A stretch of DNA of 64,000 bases from Marinobacterium iners DSM 11526 (GTDB taxonomy: Bacteria; Pseudomonadota; Gammaproteobacteria; Pseudomonadales; Balneatricaceae), in NCBI RefSeq assembly GCF_900107855.1, contig NZ_FNRJ01000001.1, forward strand, positions 124,001-188,000, in the 5' to 3' direction. Both the position numbers and the translations under genes were made by a program. The notes beneath the pieces are model-generated. The model was not told the origin of the DNA. It ran no database searches and was given only the letters and a program-made list of their open reading frames with translations. This document shows, piece after piece, positions 2,648 through 10,843 of this stretch; position 1 is the first letter of the stretch, and the number at the start of each line of letters is the position of its first letter.

Positions 2648-4000
2648 ATGGAACCCTGGACACCCGAAAGCTGGCGCAGCAAACCGATCAAGCAGCACCC
2701 GACCTACCCTGATCAAGCAGCCCTGTATCAGGTCGAGCGCACGCTGAGCGAATATCCGCCGCTGGTGTTTGCCGGGGAGATCCGCTCTCTGACTCAGGAC
2801 CTGGCTCAGGTGGCCGAAGGCAAGGCGTTCCTGCTGCAAGGCGGGGACTGTGCCGAAAGCTTTACCGAATTCAACGCCAACAAAATTCGCGATACCTTCA
2901 AGGTGCTGCTGCAGATGTCGGTCGTCATGACCTTTGCCGGCAGTTGCCCGGTGATCAAGATCGGTCGCATGGCCGGTCAGTTTGCCAAGCCTCGCTCGGC
3001 CGATACCGAAACCATCAACGGTATTGAACTGCCCAGCTATCGTGGCGATATCATCAACGGCATCGAATTCACCGCCGAAGCCCGTACTCCCGATCCGCAG
3101 CGCCTGCTGTCCGCCTACCACCAGTCGGCGGCCACACTGAACCTGCTGCGGGCATTCGCAACCGGTGGTTTTGCCGACCTGCACCGGGTGCATCAGTGGA
3201 CGCAGGGCTTCGTGCAGCAAAGCCCACAGAGTGAGAAATTTCAACATCTGGCCGACCAGATCGACCAGACCATGGCATTCATCGAAGCCTGCGGCATCAG
3301 CTCGGCCAATACCCCGCAGCTGAAGGAAACCAGCCTGTACACCTCGCATGAGGCGCTGCTGCTGGGCTACGAAGAAGCCCTGACACGTCAGGACAGCCTG
3401 ACCGGCGACTGGTATGACTGCTCTGCACATATGCTTTGGATCGGTGACCGTACCCGTCAGCCGGATCATGCTCATGTGGAGTTCCTGCGAGGCGTGCGCA
3501 ACCCGGTCGGCATCAAGGTCGGACCGAGCACGCAGCCGGACGACCTGCTGCATCTGCTTGATATTCTTAACCCAAGCCAGATTCCGGGCCGCATCACCCT
3601 GATTGCGCGCATGGGCGCCGACAAGATCACTGAGCTTTTGCCACCGCTTGTGCGCGCAGTAAAGGCCAGTGGTCACCACGTGGTGTGGAGCTCCGACCCA
3701 ATGCACGGCAATACCATCAAGGCCTCCAGTGGCTACAAGACCCGTAGCGTAAATTCGATTCTGACCGAGATGAAGGGCTTCTTCGAAGTGCACAATGCCG
3801 AAGGCACCCATGCCGGCGGCGTTCACTTCGAGATGACCGGCAACGATGTTACCGAATGCATCGGCGGCGCTTATCAGATCACCGAAGAGGGACTGGCCGA
3901 TCGCTATCATACCCAGTGTGATCCGCGCCTCAATGCCGATCAGTCACTGGAACTGGCATTCCTGATCGCCGATACACTCAAGGCCGCACGCAAGGAGTAA
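2648..4000 (+). CDS. Class II 3-deoxy-7-phosphoheptulonate (DAHP) synthase
   Basis: This enzyme condenses phosphoenolpyruvate with erythrose 4-phosphate to give DAHP, the first step of the shikimate pathway to aromatic amino acids. The 450-residue protein is of the plant/mycobacterial class II type, not the AroFGH class I type. Visible signatures are QGGDCAESF (64-72; Cys68 is the metal-ligand cysteine of the family), [12 protein letters not shown] (106-117), [14 protein letters not shown] (281-294), [10 protein letters not shown] (347-356) and the C-terminal GGVHFEMTG block, which supplies further metal and substrate contacts. Length matches the family. The ATG is preceded by a GAGAG site. 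The yqcC gene follows two bases after the stop, and the AAGGAG site of yqcC overlaps this gene's end, so they are co-transcribed. Confidence 0.95.
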
Positions 4001-4002
4001 AC

Positions 4003-4329
4003 ATGCAACGTACTGAACAGGTATCCGTCCTGTTGCTCAAGATCAGAACCGAGATGGAGGAACTGGAACTCTGGCAGTCCAGTCCTCCCAGTGCGCAGGC
4101 GCTGGCCAGTACCCAGCCTTTCTGTGTTGACACCCTGCACTTCACCGAGTGGCTGCAGTGGCTGCTGATACCCCGGCTGCAGGAGATGATCCGCCAGGAG
4201 GTTTCGCTGCCTCACAGCAGTCAAATCCATCCCATGGCGGAAGAGGTGTTCAAGCAGGTACAGGCAGACACAGACCAACTGCTCGAGCTGATCGAGCAGT
4301 TGGACAAGACCCTCTGCACGCTGCACTGA
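4003..4329 (+). CDS. yqcC: YqcC family protein (DUF446)
   Basis: A 108-residue all-helical cytosolic protein matching the YqcC family: an N-terminal helix followed by the PF..DTL.F.EWLQW..IPR...M block at about residues 43-66 and the LP.SS.I.PMAEE motif at about 70-82. In enterobacteria yqcC lies beside the tRNA pseudouridine synthase truC, but its own role is not established. Here it follows DAHP synthase by two bases and shares its transcript. Its ribosome-binding site AAGGAG overlaps the upstream stop codon, which suggests translational coupling. Confidence 0.85.
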   Translation: MQRTEQVSVLLLKIRTEMEELELWQSSPPSAQALASTQPFCVDTLHFTEWLQWLLIPRLQEMIRQEVSLPHSSQIHPMAEEVFKQVQADTDQLLELIEQLDKTLCTLH

Positions 4330-4357
4330 GCCGACACCCAAACATGGACCGCAATTC

Positions 4358-5221
4358 ATGGCTTACGAGAAACATGACAACTTTCTGTTCCGCATCGGCT
4401 TTGGTGGTGTAGACCCCTCCGAAAGCCCCAGGGCCAAACGCTGGGGCAAACGGCTTGAATGGCCCATGCTGTTTCTTGCTCTCTGGATCATGGTAGATTG
4501 GTACATGCGCTCCCAGAACCTGGGCAATGAGCGTTCAAACCTGTTTACAGACTGGCTGATTTGGCTCGGATTTGTGGCCGAGCTTACAATCATGTTACTG
4601 GTCGTACAGGACCGAGGACGATATCTGCGCCAGAACTGGATGACTGTGGTTATCATTGTCGGCGGCCTGCCTGCCATATGGGGCGCCCACTCTTTCTATG
4701 CCGGTGCCATCCGCATGCTGCGTCTGATGGTTGTAGTTGGCATTCTGTTCAAGGTGTCACGCGATCTGCGCTCCATTCTGGCACGTCACAATCTCGGCAC
4801 GACACTGCTGATCTGTTTCATATTTCTGATCATTTCAGGCCTGGTGATATCCACTCTTGATCCTGCATTCGATACCCCCTGGGATGGTATCTGGTGGGCC
4901 TGGGTCACAATCACCACCGTAGGCTATGGTGATATCGTACCCGCCACAAACGAGGGCAGACTGTTTGGCGCGATACTGATTCTGATCGGGATTTGCATGT
5001 TTTCACTGCTGACGGCCAGTTTTTCAGTATTTTTCATCGAAAAGGATGAGGGCGAGATCGCCATCAAGGAACAGCAGAATCTGGAACGCATCCACCACCT
5101 GGAAAACAGATTGGAACGCATTGAAGCAAAGCTTGAGCGCGCCCTGATTCTACTTGAGTCGGCACAAAACCGACCCGTTGATGTCACATCAGAACAAGGA
5201 AAAACAACTCGAGGAGACTAG
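4358..5221 (+). CDS. Voltage-gated-type potassium channel with C-terminal coiled coil
   Basis: The 287-residue protein has the layout of a six-helix K+ channel. A cytosolic N-terminus is followed by membrane helices at about 36-50, 66-84, 94-110 and an S4-like segment at 117-141 with regularly spaced arginines and lysines. Helix S5 is at about 148-167, then the pore helix, the selectivity filter TTVGYGD (186-192), and S6 at 203-227. The last 40 residues (about 236-268) have the heptad pattern of a coiled coil that would hold the tetramer together. It is the first gene of a tight operon: the stop is followed three bases later by the DUF1538 gene, then the PII-like and CBS genes. The context suggests its activity is coordinated with cation/proton exchange. 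No RCK domain is present. Confidence 0.87.
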   Translation: MAYEKHDNFLFRIGFGGVDPSESPRAKRWGKRLEWPMLFLALWIMVDWYMRSQNLGNERSNLFTDWLIWLGFVAELTIMLLVVQDRGRYLRQNWMTVVIIVGGLPAIWGAHSFYAGAIRMLRLMVVVGILFKVSRDLRSILARHNLGTTLLICFIFLIISGLVISTLDPAFDTPWDGIWWAWVTITTVGYGDIVPATNEGRLFGAILILIGICMFSLLTASFSVFFIEKDEGEIAIKEQQNLERIHHLENRLERIEAKLERALILLESAQNRPVDVTSEQGKTTRGD

Positions 5222-5224
5222 CCT

Positions 5225-6718
5225 GTGAATTACCTGAGTGAACTTGGTCACAGCTTTCTCCACGCGTTAAAGAACCTGCTGCCCATCGTTGCAGTTGTAC
5301 TGCTGTTTCAGCTGGTTATTCTACAGCAAGTCCCAGAAAACAGCCTCGCCATGGCTGGGGGCTTGCTGATTGTTGCCGTTGGGGTGGCGCTCTTTCTACA
5401 GGGACTGGAACTGGGTATTTTTCCGGTCGGCAAAAGCCTTTCCAACCAGTTTGCCCGTCAGGGGTCTTTACCGATACTGCTGGGATTCGGCTTCTGTCTG
5501 GGCTTTTCCGCTGTGGTCGCGGAACCTGCACTGATTGCAGTTGCCGATCAGGCACAGCAGATCAGCAATGGACGCATTGATGCTCTTACGTTGCGATTAC
5601 TGGTTGCCGCCTCAGTGGGCGCCGTTATCGCCTTAGGGGTGTTCCGAATCATTTTCGGCCACCCCATCCACCACTACATGATCGTTGGCTACATTGTAGT
5701 GGTCGTTGTCACCTTCTTCGCACCGGAAGAAATTGTTGGCCTTGCCTACGATTCCGGCGGTGTAACAACCAATGTAGTCACTGTCCCTCTGATTGCCGCT
5801 CTTGGCATTGGCCTCGCATCCTCGATTCGTGGTCGCAGCCCGCTCAAGGATGGCTTTGGGCTGGTAGCCATGGCTGTAATGGTTCCGATGATCAGCGTAC
5901 AGCTTTACGGGGCGTGGGTATACTCACAGCCTGCCCCCAATACCGAACTGCTAACGTCATCAAGCGAGGGGAACGGCAACAGCATACATCCAGTACTAAA
6001 AGGCCTGCTGGATCTCGCCACGATGGTGCGCGATGTGCTGCCAATCATTATCACCATCCTCTTTTTCCAGTACCTGATTCTCCGCCGTCCACTGGCAAAC
6101 CCTCGTCAGGTCATCTTCGGCTTTATACTGGTTATCGTCGGCCTGTACGCTTTTGTTATCGGCCTGAAACTGGGACTGTTCCCGATCGGCACCAGCATGG
6201 CAGAACAGCTGATAGCCCGTGAGGGTTATCTGTTGATCTACCTCTTTGCCTTCATGATCGGCTTTGCCACCACCATGGCGGAACCAGCACTGCTGGCTGT
6301 GGGCAAGCAGGCCGAAGAAGCGGCAGTTGGCCAAATCAACGCTGCCACCATTCGCCTGCTGGTGGCATTGGGTGTCGCTGTGGGCATCACGTTGGGTGTG
6401 TGGCGACTGGTCCATGGAGACCCTCTGCACTATTACATTATTGGCAGTTACATTCTGGTGATTGGCCTTACACTTATCGCTCCGCGCTACATCGTAGCAC
6501 TGGCCTACGACTTGGGTGGAGTTACAACGTCAGAAGTGACCGTCCCACTGGTAACCGCACTGGGAATCGGTCTTGCCAGTCAGATTGATGGTCGTAACGT
6601 ATTGATTGATGGTTTTGGCCTGATCGCCTTTGCCTCAATCTTTCCGATTGTAACCGTCATGCTTTATGCCATCTGGGCTGATTGGGCCAACCGTAGAGTC
6701 AAACAGGAGTCCGTATGA
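5225..6718 (+). CDS. DUF1538 integral membrane transporter, two fused DUF1538 repeats
   Basis: The 497-residue protein is an internal duplication of the DUF1538 membrane domain. The two halves (about residues 10-230 and 265-482) carry the same signature blocks: GLELGIFPVG / GLKLGLFPIG (60-69 and 313-322), AEPAL with A..QA (99-110 and 352-363), and AYD.GGVTT..VTVPL..ALGIGLAS (174-199 and 427-452). Each half has about six to seven hydrophobic segments; the linker at 233-262 is polar. From memory, a pair of single-DUF1538 proteins (UmpA and UmpB of Halomonas zhaodongensis) was reported as a two-component Na+(Li+,K+)/H+ antiporter, so this protein may be a fused equivalent. The GTG start (5225) follows the channel gene's stop by three bases and its own stop overlaps the PII gene as ATGA. 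The substrate is inference. Confidence 0.9.
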   Translation: MNYLSELGHSFLHALKNLLPIVAVVLLFQLVILQQVPENSLAMAGGLLIVAVGVALFLQGLELGIFPVGKSLSNQFARQGSLPILLGFGFCLGFSAVVAEPALIAVADQAQQISNGRIDALTLRLLVAASVGAVIALGVFRIIFGHPIHHYMIVGYIVVVVVTFFAPEEIVGLAYDSGGVTTNVVTVPLIAALGIGLASSIRGRSPLKDGFGLVAMAVMVPMISVQLYGAWVYSQPAPNTELLTSSSEGNGNSIHPVLKGLLDLATMVRDVLPIIITILFFQYLILRRPLANPRQVIFGFILVIVGLYAFVIGLKLGLFPIGTSMAEQLIAREGYLLIYLFAFMIGFATTMAEPALLAVGKQAEEAAVGQINAATIRLLVALGVAVGITLGVWRLVHGDPLHYYIIGSYILVIGLTLIAPRYIVALAYDLGGVTTSEVTVPLVTALGIGLASQIDGRNVLIDGFGLIAFASIFPIVTVMLYAIWADWANRRVKQESV

Positions 6719-7068
6719 AATTCACAGCCGTAGTCGGTATTGTGCCTGAAGATATGGAGCAACAGTGTGTCGACAGGGCCCGAGAGCTGGGCGCTGGAGG
6801 GATTACCATTATTCAGGGACGCGGTATAAGCAACGAAACTCGCAAGACCTTTTTCGGCTTTGCCTACGACGGCAATCAGTCCGTGTTGCTTATGGTGCTT
6901 GAACGTCAACTCTCCCTGGAAATACTGAAGGCGTTTGATGCCATCCTTCATGCCGATGACGCCTGTAACTCAAAGGGACTGGTATTCAGCCTCCCGCTTG
7001 AGCACTTGCGCGGAATGGATATGGCACAAATCCAGAAGTTTGAACAACATCTAAAAGATTCACTCTGA
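6715..7068 (+). CDS. PII-like signalling protein paired with DUF1538
   Basis: A 117-residue protein with the ferredoxin-like PII pattern: strand KFTAVVGIV at the N-terminus, helix 12-25, strand GAGGITIIQGRG (26-37), then LLMVLE, helix 66-80, and the C-terminal block CNSKGLVFSLPLE (84-96), which corresponds to the nucleotide-binding region and final strand of GlnB/GlnK. The T-loop zone between about 37 and 54 is short and lacks the modified tyrosine of GlnB. It is therefore not a classical nitrogen PII protein but one of the PII-like proteins that ride with a transporter. ATG overlaps the DUF1538 stop by four bases, so translation is coupled. It probably senses a nucleotide and gates the transporter; the ligand is unknown. 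Confidence 0.85.
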   Translation: MKFTAVVGIVPEDMEQQCVDRARELGAGGITIIQGRGISNETRKTFFGFAYDGNQSVLLMVLERQLSLEILKAFDAILHADDACNSKGLVFSLPLEHLRGMDMAQIQKFEQHLKDSL

Positions 7069-7080
7069 CAGGAGATTACC

Positions 7081-7467
7081 ATGCTGGTACAAGATGTAAT
7101 GGTCCGCGATGTCGTGATGATTTCGCCCTTCGCAACACTGCGCGAAGCCCTCAGCATGATGAAACGCCGGGATCTGAAGTCTCTGGTTGTGGACAAGAAC
7201 CATGACTACGACGCGTATGGTCTGATCACCTATACCAATATTGTGAAAACCGTGATCGCGGAAAGCGGCGATATTGATTTGCTCAACGTCTATGATGTGT
7301 GCGTGAAACCTGCCTTGAGCGTTGGCAAGAGTCTGGCTGTTCGACATGTGGCCGAGTTGATGTCGCAGCACAGAATCAAGCGTATTCTGGTCGTCGAAGA
7401 CAACGATCTTATCGGACTGGTGACCATGGATGACATGGTAGAAACCCTGTTGCAGGAAATTGATTGA
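7081..7467 (+). CDS. Two-CBS-domain regulatory protein
   Basis: The 128-residue protein consists of two CBS motifs (about residues 1-60 and 72-128) and nothing else. Each has the DVM...V..I.P..TLREAL..M and GLIT..N / GLVTMDDMVE patterns. Such Bateman modules bind adenine nucleotides and act on a partner protein. A good AGGAG site lies six bases upstream of the ATG and the gap to the PII-like gene is 12 bases, so this is the last gene of the channel/DUF1538/PII/CBS operon. A strong bidirectional terminator follows. Together with PII it would give the transporter two nucleotide sensors; the targets are inferred from gene order. Confidence 0.88.
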   Translation: MLVQDVMVRDVVMISPFATLREALSMMKRRDLKSLVVDKNHDYDAYGLITYTNIVKTVIAESGDIDLLNVYDVCVKPALSVGKSLAVRHVAELMSQHRIKRILVVEDNDLIGLVTMDDMVETLLQEID

Positions 7468-7495
7468 GCCCGGCTGAAAATACCCGGGCTCAATC
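7462..7495. terminator. Bidirectional terminator between convergent operons
   Basis: A 12-base perfect stem (7462-7473 with 7484-7495) encloses a 10-base loop and overlaps the stop codon of the CBS gene. It is followed by tttcgtt on the plus strand. It lies between the CBS gene and the convergent Kef-type antiporter gene and could serve both. Confidence 0.65.
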
Positions 7496-7500
7496 TTTCG

Positions 7501-9063
7501 TTATATCACTTCCTGCTGCTTGCGTTTACCCACACTGAAAATATGTTCGGCCAGACCTACACCGGTTTCAGCCATGGTCTGGTAGGTGTGGTCAGCGCCT
7601 GCGCGCGTGATTGCATCAGCGTGGTCAGCAAACATGCTGTGCGCCACAATCACGCCTTCGAAGCCGGACTGTCGCAACTGACGTGCCGCTATGACCTTGG
7701 CTTCCACATCATTGGCTGCCAATATCACATACTCCAGCTCAGGCGCTTCAAGGTTCTTCCAGAGTTGAATATCCTCGGCATCAGCGAACACCACATGACG
7801 GCCTCTATGCTGGTGCTCAGCCACTTTGGCCGGGTCTGAGTCCAGTCCTACCATGTCAATATTGCGTTTTTTAAGGTGATCATAGGCTGCCGTGCCTGTA
7901 CGTCCCATACCAATCACCAGTATGCGCGCATCACCCAGCGACAGCGGCTGCTCGTCTGGATGAAAGCCCTTGCGCTCGAAACGCGACAGCCAGTCACCGA
8001 AACGATCGTACAAGGGGTGCGCCATACGGTACAGCGGTGCGGATATCAGGAATGACACCGACACCGCAATTGCCAGCGGAATCAGCCACTGCGGCAGCAC
8101 AATACTGGCCACAATAAGGCCGAACTCACTGTAATTGGTCAGGCTCAGGCCCGACAGGAAGGCACTGCGTGCCCGCAGTTTGAACATCAGCAGCAGGAAG
8201 AAGAACAGAATCCCTTTCAGCGGCAGCAGCACACCCATTACCACCGCGAACACAATCGCATCCATATCCGGCAGACCACCCATACCGATTTGCAGGAAGA
8301 AGCCCACCAGAAATACTTCCTTGATGCTCCAAAGCGACTGAGACAGCTCTCCTGCTCGCTTGTGATTGGCCAGTAGAGCACCGAACGCCAGTGCACCCAG
8401 CTCAGAGCTGAGGCCAATACTTTCAAAGCCATGCCCACCTATCACCAGCGCCAGCAACAGCCCCAGCAACACAAGCAGTTCGTCATGCCCGCTGACATCA
8501 AGCACCTTGTACAGTATTGGTCGCAGAAGCGGTATGCCAAACACTACCAGTGCCCACATGGAAGGCGTTTTGCCGCTGGCCAGCGCCAGCACCAGCAGTG
8601 CCAGAAGGTCCTGCACAATCAGAATTCCGATCGCGACCCTGCCGTGAAAGGCACGCAGTTCCCGCTTGGACTCCAGCACCTTGGCGGCCAGTACCGTGCT
8701 GGAAAAGGAGAGAGCAATACCCAGCATCAGAGAGGTGTACCAGTCCAGCTCCATAAAGAAATGTATACCGGGCATGAAAAGCAAGATAGAGATGACAAAG
8801 TGGAGCACGCCTCCGCCAATCACCTCAGGGCGCACCAGATTGCGTACCTTGAGCTTCAACCCCACCGTGAACAGAAGCAGCAGAACACCCAGATGAGCCA
8901 GATGTGCGAGTACATCGGTGCCTTCAACAGGAATACCTGCAATATCACCTGCGGCCACGATGGCAAAGCCCGCCGCCAGATAACCGATCAGCGGCGGCAA
9001 CCCCACCAGCTTGACCGCCATTCCCAACGAAAAGGCAAAGATAATCCAGACAGCTTCGATCAC
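7501..9063 (-). CDS. Kef-type cation:proton antiporter (CPA2) with TrkA-N domain
   Basis: The 520-residue protein has an N-terminal CPA2 exchanger domain of about 12 helices (residues 1-345) and a C-terminal Rossmann TrkA-N (KTN) domain with the nucleotide-binding loop GMGRTG at 385-390. The exchanger core shows LSFSSTVLAAKVL (118-130) and IVQDLLALL (149-157), with the QD pair typical of the KefB/KefC/YbaL group. It should exchange K+ (or Na+) for H+ across the inner membrane under control of a nucleotide bound to the KTN domain. It faces the channel/DUF1538 operon across a shared terminator and precedes an NhaP2-type antiporter gene on the same strand. The closest relatives are probably YbaL-like; the exact ion is not decided by sequence. 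Confidence 0.9.
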   Translation of the reverse strand: MIEAVWIIFAFSLGMAVKLVGLPPLIGYLAAGFAIVAAGDIAGIPVEGTDVLAHLAHLGVLLLLFTVGLKLKVRNLVRPEVIGGGVLHFVISILLFMPGIHFFMELDWYTSLMLGIALSFSSTVLAAKVLESKRELRAFHGRVAIGILIVQDLLALLVLALASGKTPSMWALVVFGIPLLRPILYKVLDVSGHDELLVLLGLLLALVIGGHGFESIGLSSELGALAFGALLANHKRAGELSQSLWSIKEVFLVGFFLQIGMGGLPDMDAIVFAVVMGVLLPLKGILFFFLLLMFKLRARSAFLSGLSLTNYSEFGLIVASIVLPQWLIPLAIAVSVSFLISAPLYRMAHPLYDRFGDWLSRFERKGFHPDEQPLSLGDARILVIGMGRTGTAAYDHLKKRNIDMVGLDSDPAKVAEHQHRGRHVVFADAEDIQLWKNLEAPELEYVILAANDVEAKVIAARQLRQSGFEGVIVAHSMFADHADAITRAGADHTYQTMAETGVGLAEHIFSVGKRKQQEVI

Positions 9064-9139
9064 GCGGTACTCTCCTTATGTGACTCTGTGCGCGGGATGG
9101 CATTAAACCATGTCAGGTCAAAGGTGTCAGCGATCAGGA

Positions 9140-10843
9140 TCAGAACTTCAGGCCAACCCGCGTAACCTGACCCGCCTCAACCGCCTTGACCACCAGCTCA
9201 ATGGCCCCCAGGGGCACCCGGTCGCCCACTACCGGAGCCGTATGCAGGCGTTCACGAATATATTCAGACAGTTGTTGCTCCGCCTGATCCGGGGGCACAG
9301 CCACACCGAAGTTCTGTGCCAGTGCCGCCAGTTCGATGTTGGCGTTGAGCTCAAAGGCGCCGAAGAAAGTGCGCTCCTTCAACGCAGGGATTGATTCGAC
9401 AGAGCTGAACAAACGCGCCAGTGGTTTTTCCGCTTCATCATTACCAATCACCGCCAGCCGGTCCCCAGACTGCAGTTTGAGTTCAGACGTCCAGGGCAGA
9501 AGCTCCCTGCCGCGCAGCACTGCACTGATCACAATATTGCCCGGCAGCTTAACCCCTTGCAGGGTTCTGGCCGGAGTCCAGTGTTCACCATCAAGTTCAA
9601 ATACCCAAACTCGATGATTCTGTTCCATGGACCATTCAAGACTCAGGCGGCGCATCGCTTCAGGCTCGGCTGGCAGTTCAAGTTTCAACCAGCGTGCTAC
9701 CCGTGCCAGCGTTGTCCCCTGCAGCAGCAGCGACATGATCACCACAATAAAGGCGATGGTGGGGAACAACGCTGCATTATCCAGACCCGCCATTAACGGA
9801 AACAGCGCCAGTACAATTGGCACGGCCCCGCGCAGACCCACCCAGGCGATGAACAGCTGCTCACGCCAGCGAAAGCCGAACGGCCAGAGCGTCAGTGCGA
9901 TCGATAGAGGCCTGGCCAGCAGGATCAGCACGGCACCCAACGCAATGCCTTCCGGCACAAAGGCAAGCTTGTCATGAGGGGACAACAGCAGTCCCAGCAT
10001 CAAAAACAGGCTCAGCTGGGCCAGCCACGCCAGACCATCATGCACCTGCAGGATATCATCCAGTTTACGCAGCCCACGGTTGCCGATCAGAATCCCCATA
10101 AGGTAAATGGCAAGAAAACCACTGCCATCGAGCAGATAAACCACGGAGAAAACGGTCAGACCCGCAGCTGTTACCAGCAACGGATAAAAGGCCGGCTGCA
10201 GATCCAGCCGCGGCAGCAGCCGCGCCATGGCCCAACCGCCGGCCAGGCCACCCAGCGCCCCCAGCGCCAGCTGTTTGCCCAGTAATAGCGCCGCTTCAGC
10301 CACCCCGGGAGGTGTATCTCGCGTAATCAGTTCCAGCAGGATGATTGTCAGGAAGATCGCCATCGGATCGTTGCTGCCCGACTCAATCTCAAGGGTTGCA
10401 CTGACACGCTGGTTCAGACGCAGGCCGTGATTCTGCAGCAACGCAAATACAGCGGCAGCATCGGTTGAAGAGATGATGGTGCCGATCAGCAACGCATGCA
10501 GCAGTGGCAACTCGAGAATCCACCAGGCTGCCAGACCGGTCACGGCGGCCGTGATAACAACTCCGAAGGTCGCCAGCGCCAAAGCAGGCCGTAGCCCGAC
10601 CCGGAACGTCTCGATACGGGTACGCATGCCACCATCCAGCAAAATGATCGCCAGCGCCAGGTGGCCGACAAAAAACGTGCTTTCCACATCCGCCGACAGG
10701 TTTTGCCCCATCTGAGTCTGACCGGCCAGCAGCCCAACACCCAAAAACAGTAACAGCACCGGCATGCCGATACGGTTGGAAAGCGGACTCAGGAGGATGC
10801 TGATCAGCAGCATCGCGCTGGCAAACAGAAGCGTGAGGATCAT
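9140..10843 (-). CDS. nhaP2: NhaP2/CvrA-type K+/H+ antiporter with RCK_C and CorC-like domains
   Basis: The 567-residue protein has a CPA1 exchanger domain of about 12-13 helices (residues 1-385), then a TrkA-C domain (about 405-475, with LPGNIVISAVLRGRELLPW) and a C-terminal CorC/HlyC-like domain (about 490-567). This three-part layout is that of the cell-volume protein CvrA, also called NhaP2, which exports K+ (or Na+) for H+ at the inner membrane. Motifs such as SSTDAAAVFALL and ESGSNDPMAIFLT around the ion site are intact. It lies 76 bases upstream of the Kef-type gene on the same strand, so the two may share a transcript. Its start faces the divergent DUF3549 gene over a gap of about 180 bases. 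Confidence 0.92.
   Translation of the reverse strand: MILTLLFASAMLLISILLSPLSNRIGMPVLLLFLGVGLLAGQTQMGQNLSADVESTFFVGHLALAIILLDGGMRTRIETFRVGLRPALALATFGVVITAAVTGLAAWWILELPLLHALLIGTIISSTDAAAVFALLQNHGLRLNQRVSATLEIESGSNDPMAIFLTIILLELITRDTPPGVAEAALLLGKQLALGALGGLAGGWAMARLLPRLDLQPAFYPLLVTAAGLTVFSVVYLLDGSGFLAIYLMGILIGNRGLRKLDDILQVHDGLAWLAQLSLFLMLGLLLSPHDKLAFVPEGIALGAVLILLARPLSIALTLWPFGFRWREQLFIAWVGLRGAVPIVLALFPLMAGLDNAALFPTIAFIVVIMSLLLQGTTLARVARWLKLELPAEPEAMRRLSLEWSMEQNHRVWVFELDGEHWTPARTLQGVKLPGNIVISAVLRGRELLPWTSELKLQSGDRLAVIGNDEAEKPLARLFSSVESIPALKERTFFGAFELNANIELAALAQNFGVAVPPDQAEQQLSEYIRERLHTAPVVGDRVPLGAIELVVKAVEAGQVTRVGLKF

Follow-up and report, generated by a model that had tools for sequence, protein, structure and literature searches.

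A predicted UmpAB-type cation/proton antiporter with a dedicated PII-like partner in Marinobacterium iners and other bacteria

The 64,000-nucleotide stretch of Marinobacterium iners DSM 11526 DNA considered here (contig NZ_FNRJ01000001.1, positions 124,001 to 188,000; below, the window) carries a cassette of three genes. It probably encodes a monovalent cation/proton antiporter with UmpA and UmpB joined in one chain, a dedicated PII-like regulator gating this antiporter via its T-loop, and a CBS-pair protein. A sequence-only reading of the same DNA had combined these genes and the preceding K+ channel gene into one four-gene operon; its coordinates and gaps of 3, -4 (ATGA) and 12 bases are reproduced by the open reading frame (ORF) calls:

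4358..5221, + strand: K+ channel gene, 287 amino acids (aa)
5225..6718, + strand: double DUF1538 protein with UmpA and UmpB halves in one chain, GTG start, 497 aa; predicted Na+(Li+,K+)/H+ antiporter
6715..7068, + strand: PII-like regulator, 117 aa, with a short conserved T-loop (GRGISNETRKTFFG); its gene overlaps the antiporter gene by ATGA
7081..7467, + strand: stand-alone CBS pair (Bateman) protein, 128 aa, two CBS domains

The DUF1538-PII-CBS triplet, whose recurrence the sequence-only reading had proposed to survey, proved to be very widespread. The survey comprised 197 loci around DUF1538 hits: 60 from the phylum of the window (the window included), 80 from named GTDB records, four from plasmid records and 53 from Campylobacterota; some loci share one genome (e.g., L070 and L121), and they are not all independent. 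The PII-like gene is located directly downstream of the DUF1538 gene, or is fused to it, in all but 12 loci. Of these 12, PII and CBS genes lie immediately upstream in five, contig ends truncate four, and PII is truly lacking in three. Adjacency or fusion is thereby found in 190 of the 193 resolvable loci, which belong to Pseudomonadota, Campylobacterota, Actinomycetota and Bacillota, and the CBS pair accompanies PII in 134 loci. The gap between DUF1538 and PII genes has a median of -4 bp and does not exceed 30 bp in 94% of cases. Named hosts include Marinobacter, Halomonas, Vibrio, Shewanella, Thioalkalivibrio, Arthrobacter and Sulfurovum; Clostridia and plasmid records of Alphaproteobacteria contain DUF1538-PII without CBS. 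The set of genes is fixed and their order is not, as the inverted arrangement PII-CBS-UmpAB occurs in some Campylobacterota (L177, L244, L248, L258, L279).

Dedication of the PII-like protein to DUF1538 was assessed by a whole-genome search with a profile of these proteins. In 57 relatives, strong hits coincided exactly with DUF1538: 25 genomes have both, and none of the 32 genomes lacking DUF1538 gave a strong hit; the positive half of this test is circular, since the profile was built partly from those loci. Two of the genomes lacking DUF1538 gave weak hits (E around 1e-6), which are probably ordinary GlnB/GlnK. Campylobacterota, which are independent of the profile, contain the PII-like protein in 51 of 51 genomes with DUF1538 versus 0 of 247 without it (the latter include a genome whose DUF1538 is just a broken fragment), and chance neighbourhood is ruled out by this comparison. 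All strong hits are positioned beside or within a DUF1538 gene. Judged from these searches, the PII-like gene is almost never encountered without DUF1538, and vice versa.

The PII-like domain forms the C-terminal part of the DUF1538 protein itself in 30 loci, of which 12 are named and 18 sampled; all belong to Campylobacterota. The twelve named fusions are 638-679 aa long, with E-values of the PII domain from 1e-15 to 1e-23. Such fusions are classic evidence for direct physical partnership, here predicted between the PII-like protein and the antiporter. The PII tree follows antiporter architecture, requiring 8 label changes versus 87 in shuffles, and in two-cassette genomes (L064, L073) each type of antiporter stays matched with a PII type of its own. 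The sequence-only reading had the PII-like protein controlling the DUF1538 protein; natural fusions and joint gain and loss with DUF1538 make direct control likely.

A split and a fused UmpAB cassette lie in tandem in L064 and L073 (also in L123, L124 and L087), each accompanied by a PII-like gene of its own, and in L064 and L073 an extra PII-like gene precedes the tandem. Locus L079 encodes a 420-aa protein (3899-5161, - strand) with two PII-like stretches, one of which also scores as HisG_C in Pfam; it comes after a divergent 652-aa double DUF1538 protein.

The window PII-like protein is scored by Pfam PII (PF00543) at E 0.0045 and 17.7 bits, below the gathering score of 25, and several relatives in the same position pass this cut-off with 27 to 38 bits. 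Its AlphaFold model (pLDDT 79.6) has the ferredoxin-like PII fold. The model gave 180 PDB matches at E<=1e-3, and the 50 listed are all PII or PII-like, with TTHA0516, GlnK, SbtB and CPII at the top. In an alignment of 63 sequences the T-loop has the consensus A-R-G-E-G-x4-K-T-F-F-G, where G37 and G48 are invariant, K/R44 is retained in 53 sequences and T45 in 54.

The 497-aa membrane protein matches Pfam DUF1538 (PF07556) in two stretches (7.7e-136, 450.6 bits with a gathering cut-off of 22.6). In NCBIfam, UmpA is the best model over residues 9-230 and UmpB over 266-494, which assigns the protein by sequence to the UmpA/UmpB family. A function has been reported for this family in one study, which the sequence-only reading did not include: UmpA and UmpB of Halomonas zhaodongensis, whose co-expression is required, perform Na+(Li+,K+)/H+ antiport in everted vesicles with K0.5 of 0.26 to 0.46 mM (PMC5484666). 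The substrate class in the earlier proposal of a cation uptake/efflux system is in line with the monovalent cation antiport already described (PMC5484666). In both systems two homologous DUF1538 units of the same family occur together, the window chain being composed of a UmpA-like and then a UmpB-like half. The Halomonas proteins differ in being encoded by two genes and in having been studied without PII or CBS, whereas the window protein is a single chain in an operon with both putative regulators. A clone carrying neither PII nor CBS sufficed for UmpAB activity in E. coli (PMC5484666), and these two proteins are therefore more likely regulators than transport parts.

The AlphaFold model of UmpAB is confident (pLDDT 88, pTM 0.88). 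A Foldseek search of this model against PDB gave no match at E<=1e-3, and phmmer searches of the window PII-like and DUF1538 proteins against PDB sequences returned nothing significant. The top match in a VIA comparison was NCX_Mj, a Na+/Ca2+ exchanger (CaCA superfamily), with Z 7.7, 190 residues and rmsd 6.5; this Z is below the level trusted for helical proteins, and the likeness of the model is too weak for a claim of kinship and could serve as a lead only. Each DUF1538 half (window 5225-6718) contains two near-invariant motifs, the repeats TTMAEP and DLGGVTTSEVTVP, at broken helices, which loosely recall the alpha-repeats of Na+/Ca2+ exchangers.

The third protein of the cassette is a bare CBS pair (Pfam CBS 2.5e-21) with two motifs of the adenosine type (GhhTxxD), GLITYTN and GLVTMDD, and adenylate sensing by it is plausible from these motifs. 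Fusions of CBS to PII or to DUF1538 were not found among the 197 loci.

Dedicated pairing, tight coupling of the genes, fusion and a conserved T-loop motif are features read from the sequences; the following mechanism is built on them by analogy. The PII-like trimer would dock on the antiporter from the cytoplasmic side and gate or block transport with its conserved T-loop, as GlnK does on AmtB and SbtB on SbtA. In lineages possessing CBS, the CBS dimer could bind adenine nucleotide and add an energy signal. As an outcome, cation/H+ exchange would be switched by the internal state of the cell, with pH and K+/Na+ balance protected. Blocking of the partner transporter by the T-loop is established for GlnK and SbtB (PMC10710835, PMC8352866). 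AmtB-GlnK, the model used for the cassette, is likewise a membrane transporter and PII encoded in one operon; it differs in that AmtB is an ammonium channel and GlnK combines canonical sites for ATP and 2-oxoglutarate with a long T-loop that includes a uridylylation site. Cyanobacterial SbtA-SbtB resembles the cassette in the order of genes, transporter and then small PII-like regulator, and in the fold match to SbtB; the transporter and its substrate, bicarbonate, are different, and the cited accounts mention neither fusion nor CBS partner. PII-gated transporters as such are already on record. A PII gene adjoining a proton/cation antiporter has a precedent in PII-NG beside CzcABC, though the partner there is a heavy-metal pump and not DUF1538 (PMC7726332).

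Several points weigh against this reading. The canonical ATP-phosphate residues R38, K90, R101 and R103 are missing from the PII-like proteins; in 63 sequences the corresponding positions are mostly occupied by E/T/I or G, I/V/L, G, and A/E/D. The sequence-only reading had taken the PII-like protein for a nucleotide sensor; sensing of adenine nucleotides by it is consequently not supported as stated, and the CBS protein becomes the better candidate for adenylate sensing because the PII-like protein is devoid of these residues. CBS in turn is absent in many lineages and hence cannot be essential. Three loci (L109, L111 and L112) have DUF1538 with no PII nearby. The window protein misses the equivalog cut-offs of UmpA and UmpB (NF041627, 451.5 vs 490; NF041628, 410.9 vs 500) and is not an equivalog by the rule of NCBI. 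Antiport by DUF1538 proteins comes from one laboratory and one species (PMC5484666). UmpAB was reported as a heterodimer (PMC5484666), whereas PII control so far is apparently limited to trimeric transporters (PMC10710835).

Other explanations of the same genes were considered. RefSeq names these PII-like proteins P-II family nitrogen regulator, and an ordinary nitrogen regulator could simply happen to adjoin a transporter gene. This is highly improbable, as the protein is never away from DUF1538 at strong E-values, is fused to it in 30 loci and is missing the canonical ATP residues; moreover, no glnA, amtB or ntr gene turned up in the neighbourhoods read, whose genes were not exhaustively annotated. 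An equally slight chance is given to the PII-like and CBS proteins being a c-di-AMP response pair similar to PstA/DarA and DarB of Bacillus subtilis. The two domain types are the same and are tied to K+ homeostasis in that species (PMC7900238). However, DarA/PstA and DarB are c-di-AMP receptors, and no member of the diadenylate cyclase family (PF02457) was found in the 53 genomes searched (the M. iners genome and 52 relatives), while control genomes were positive; c-di-AMP as a common ligand of both proteins is thereby strongly disfavoured on genomic grounds. Transport by DUF1538 of something other than Na+/K+, such as bicarbonate or a divalent cation, with the PII-like protein sensing that substrate, is quite unlikely. 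It would agree with there being only one functional paper on the family (PMC5484666), with SbtB and CPII being PII-like proteins tied to bicarbonate, and with the weak structural likeness to NCX_Mj described above. It conflicts with the Na+, Li+ and K+ antiport at sub-millimolar K0.5 recorded in everted vesicles (PMC5484666), and with the K+ channel, RCK and CPA antiporter genes clustering around some cassettes.

The remaining alternative concerns the channel. It has a voltage-sensor-like part, a pore with the TVGYGD selectivity filter (Pfam Ion_trans_2, PF07885, 3.2e-17) and a coiled-coil-like C-terminal tail, with no RCK domain. All four genes could form one K+ module, in which K+ enters through the channel and leaves in exchange for H+ through the PII/CBS-controlled antiporter. 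The genes are co-directional, with a gap of 3 bp in the window and in G002, and independent Kch-RCK cases exist: UmpA is immediately preceded by Kch-RCK in L102 and L110, and the UmpAB-PII fusion is preceded by Kch-RCK plus an RCK protein in Aliarcobacter (L160) and in four sampled Campylobacterota (L260, L269, L273, L278). Of 56 upstream neighbours only 5 belong to RCK (TrkA_N), yet this is more than for any other Pfam family. The gene order in the genus, DAHP synthase - yqcC - kch - [umpAB - PII - CBS] - kefB - nhaP, makes such a module unlikely: kch is present at the site in every one of the 8 genomes, the triplet in just 3 of them, and at the five empty sites the convergent kefB lies next to kch with little or no space between. 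The triplet is hence a unit gained or lost as one block, with the channel a resident of the site. No cassette lies within about 4 kb of the orthologous channels of 8 other genomes, and in most of the 197 loci there is no channel in the vicinity. The membership of the channel in a four-gene unit, assumed in the sequence-only reading, is thus contradicted within the genus. The channel may be transcribed together with the cassette and could complete a K+ cycle, without being required by the unit. K+ modules beside cassettes in other lineages suggest a K+ theme without making the channel part of the system.

The surroundings of the cassette in the window comprise the following features:

2648..4000, + strand: class II DAHP synthase, upstream in the same run (Pfam 1.2e-220)
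4003..4329, + strand: YqcC/DUF446-like gene, upstream in the same run (Pfam DUF446 7.9e-34)
7462..7495, + strand: hairpin, likely terminator, 12-bp stem, z -5.7
7501..9063, - strand: KefB-like CPA2 cation/H+ antiporter with TrkA_N domain, convergent (Pfam)
9140..10843, - strand: CPA1-type Na+/H+ antiporter with TrkA_C and CorC_HlyC domains (Pfam)

The co-directional run starts before the channel, at DAHP synthase and then the YqcC-like gene, which was missing from the sequence-only reading. As the channel gene begins 28 bp behind yqcC, there is no obvious promoter gap in front of it; sites found in a promoter scan were no commoner than in shuffles. The strong terminator claimed at the end of the operon is a genuine hairpin (-23.4 kcal/mol; z -5.7 relative to shuffles) with a short U-run; it overlaps the stop codon of the CBS gene between the convergent CBS and kefB-like genes. 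An Rfam search of the window gave no match. Beside the cassette, the KefB-like and CPA1-type antiporter genes (window 7501-10843) form an adjacent pair that every member of the genus retains. The vicinity of DAHP synthase-yqcC (window 2648-7467; L062, L066-L071, L074-L077) hosts UmpAB cassettes of two types, split and one-chain, in differing orientations in about 13 of the 60 loci of the phylum sample, as if it were a preferred site.

The pairing of DUF1538 with PII was not found in the open-access literature (closed-access publications not being covered), and the UmpAB paper (PMC5484666) does not mention PII. Transporters under PII control in a 2023 review are those of ammonium, nitrate, urea and bicarbonate, with no Na+/K+ antiporter among them (PMC10710835). 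A broader, doubtful though possible interpretation is that an antiporter family has been organized around an obligate PII gating domain sensing neither nitrogen nor the classical PII nucleotides. The signal could instead be a different adenylate, the cation itself or pH, partly handed over by CBS, and the pairing with K+ channels in some lineages could represent a regulated K+ cycle.

Natural UmpAB-PII fusions provide ready-made constructs for tests of PII gating. If the proposed gating is true, many database entries naming these PII-like proteins nitrogen regulators would need correcting. The pairing within the cassette suggests that PII proteins also control the salt and pH balance of the cell; PII control would then extend to this balance in at least four phyla, including many marine, halophilic or sulfur-oxidising bacteria.

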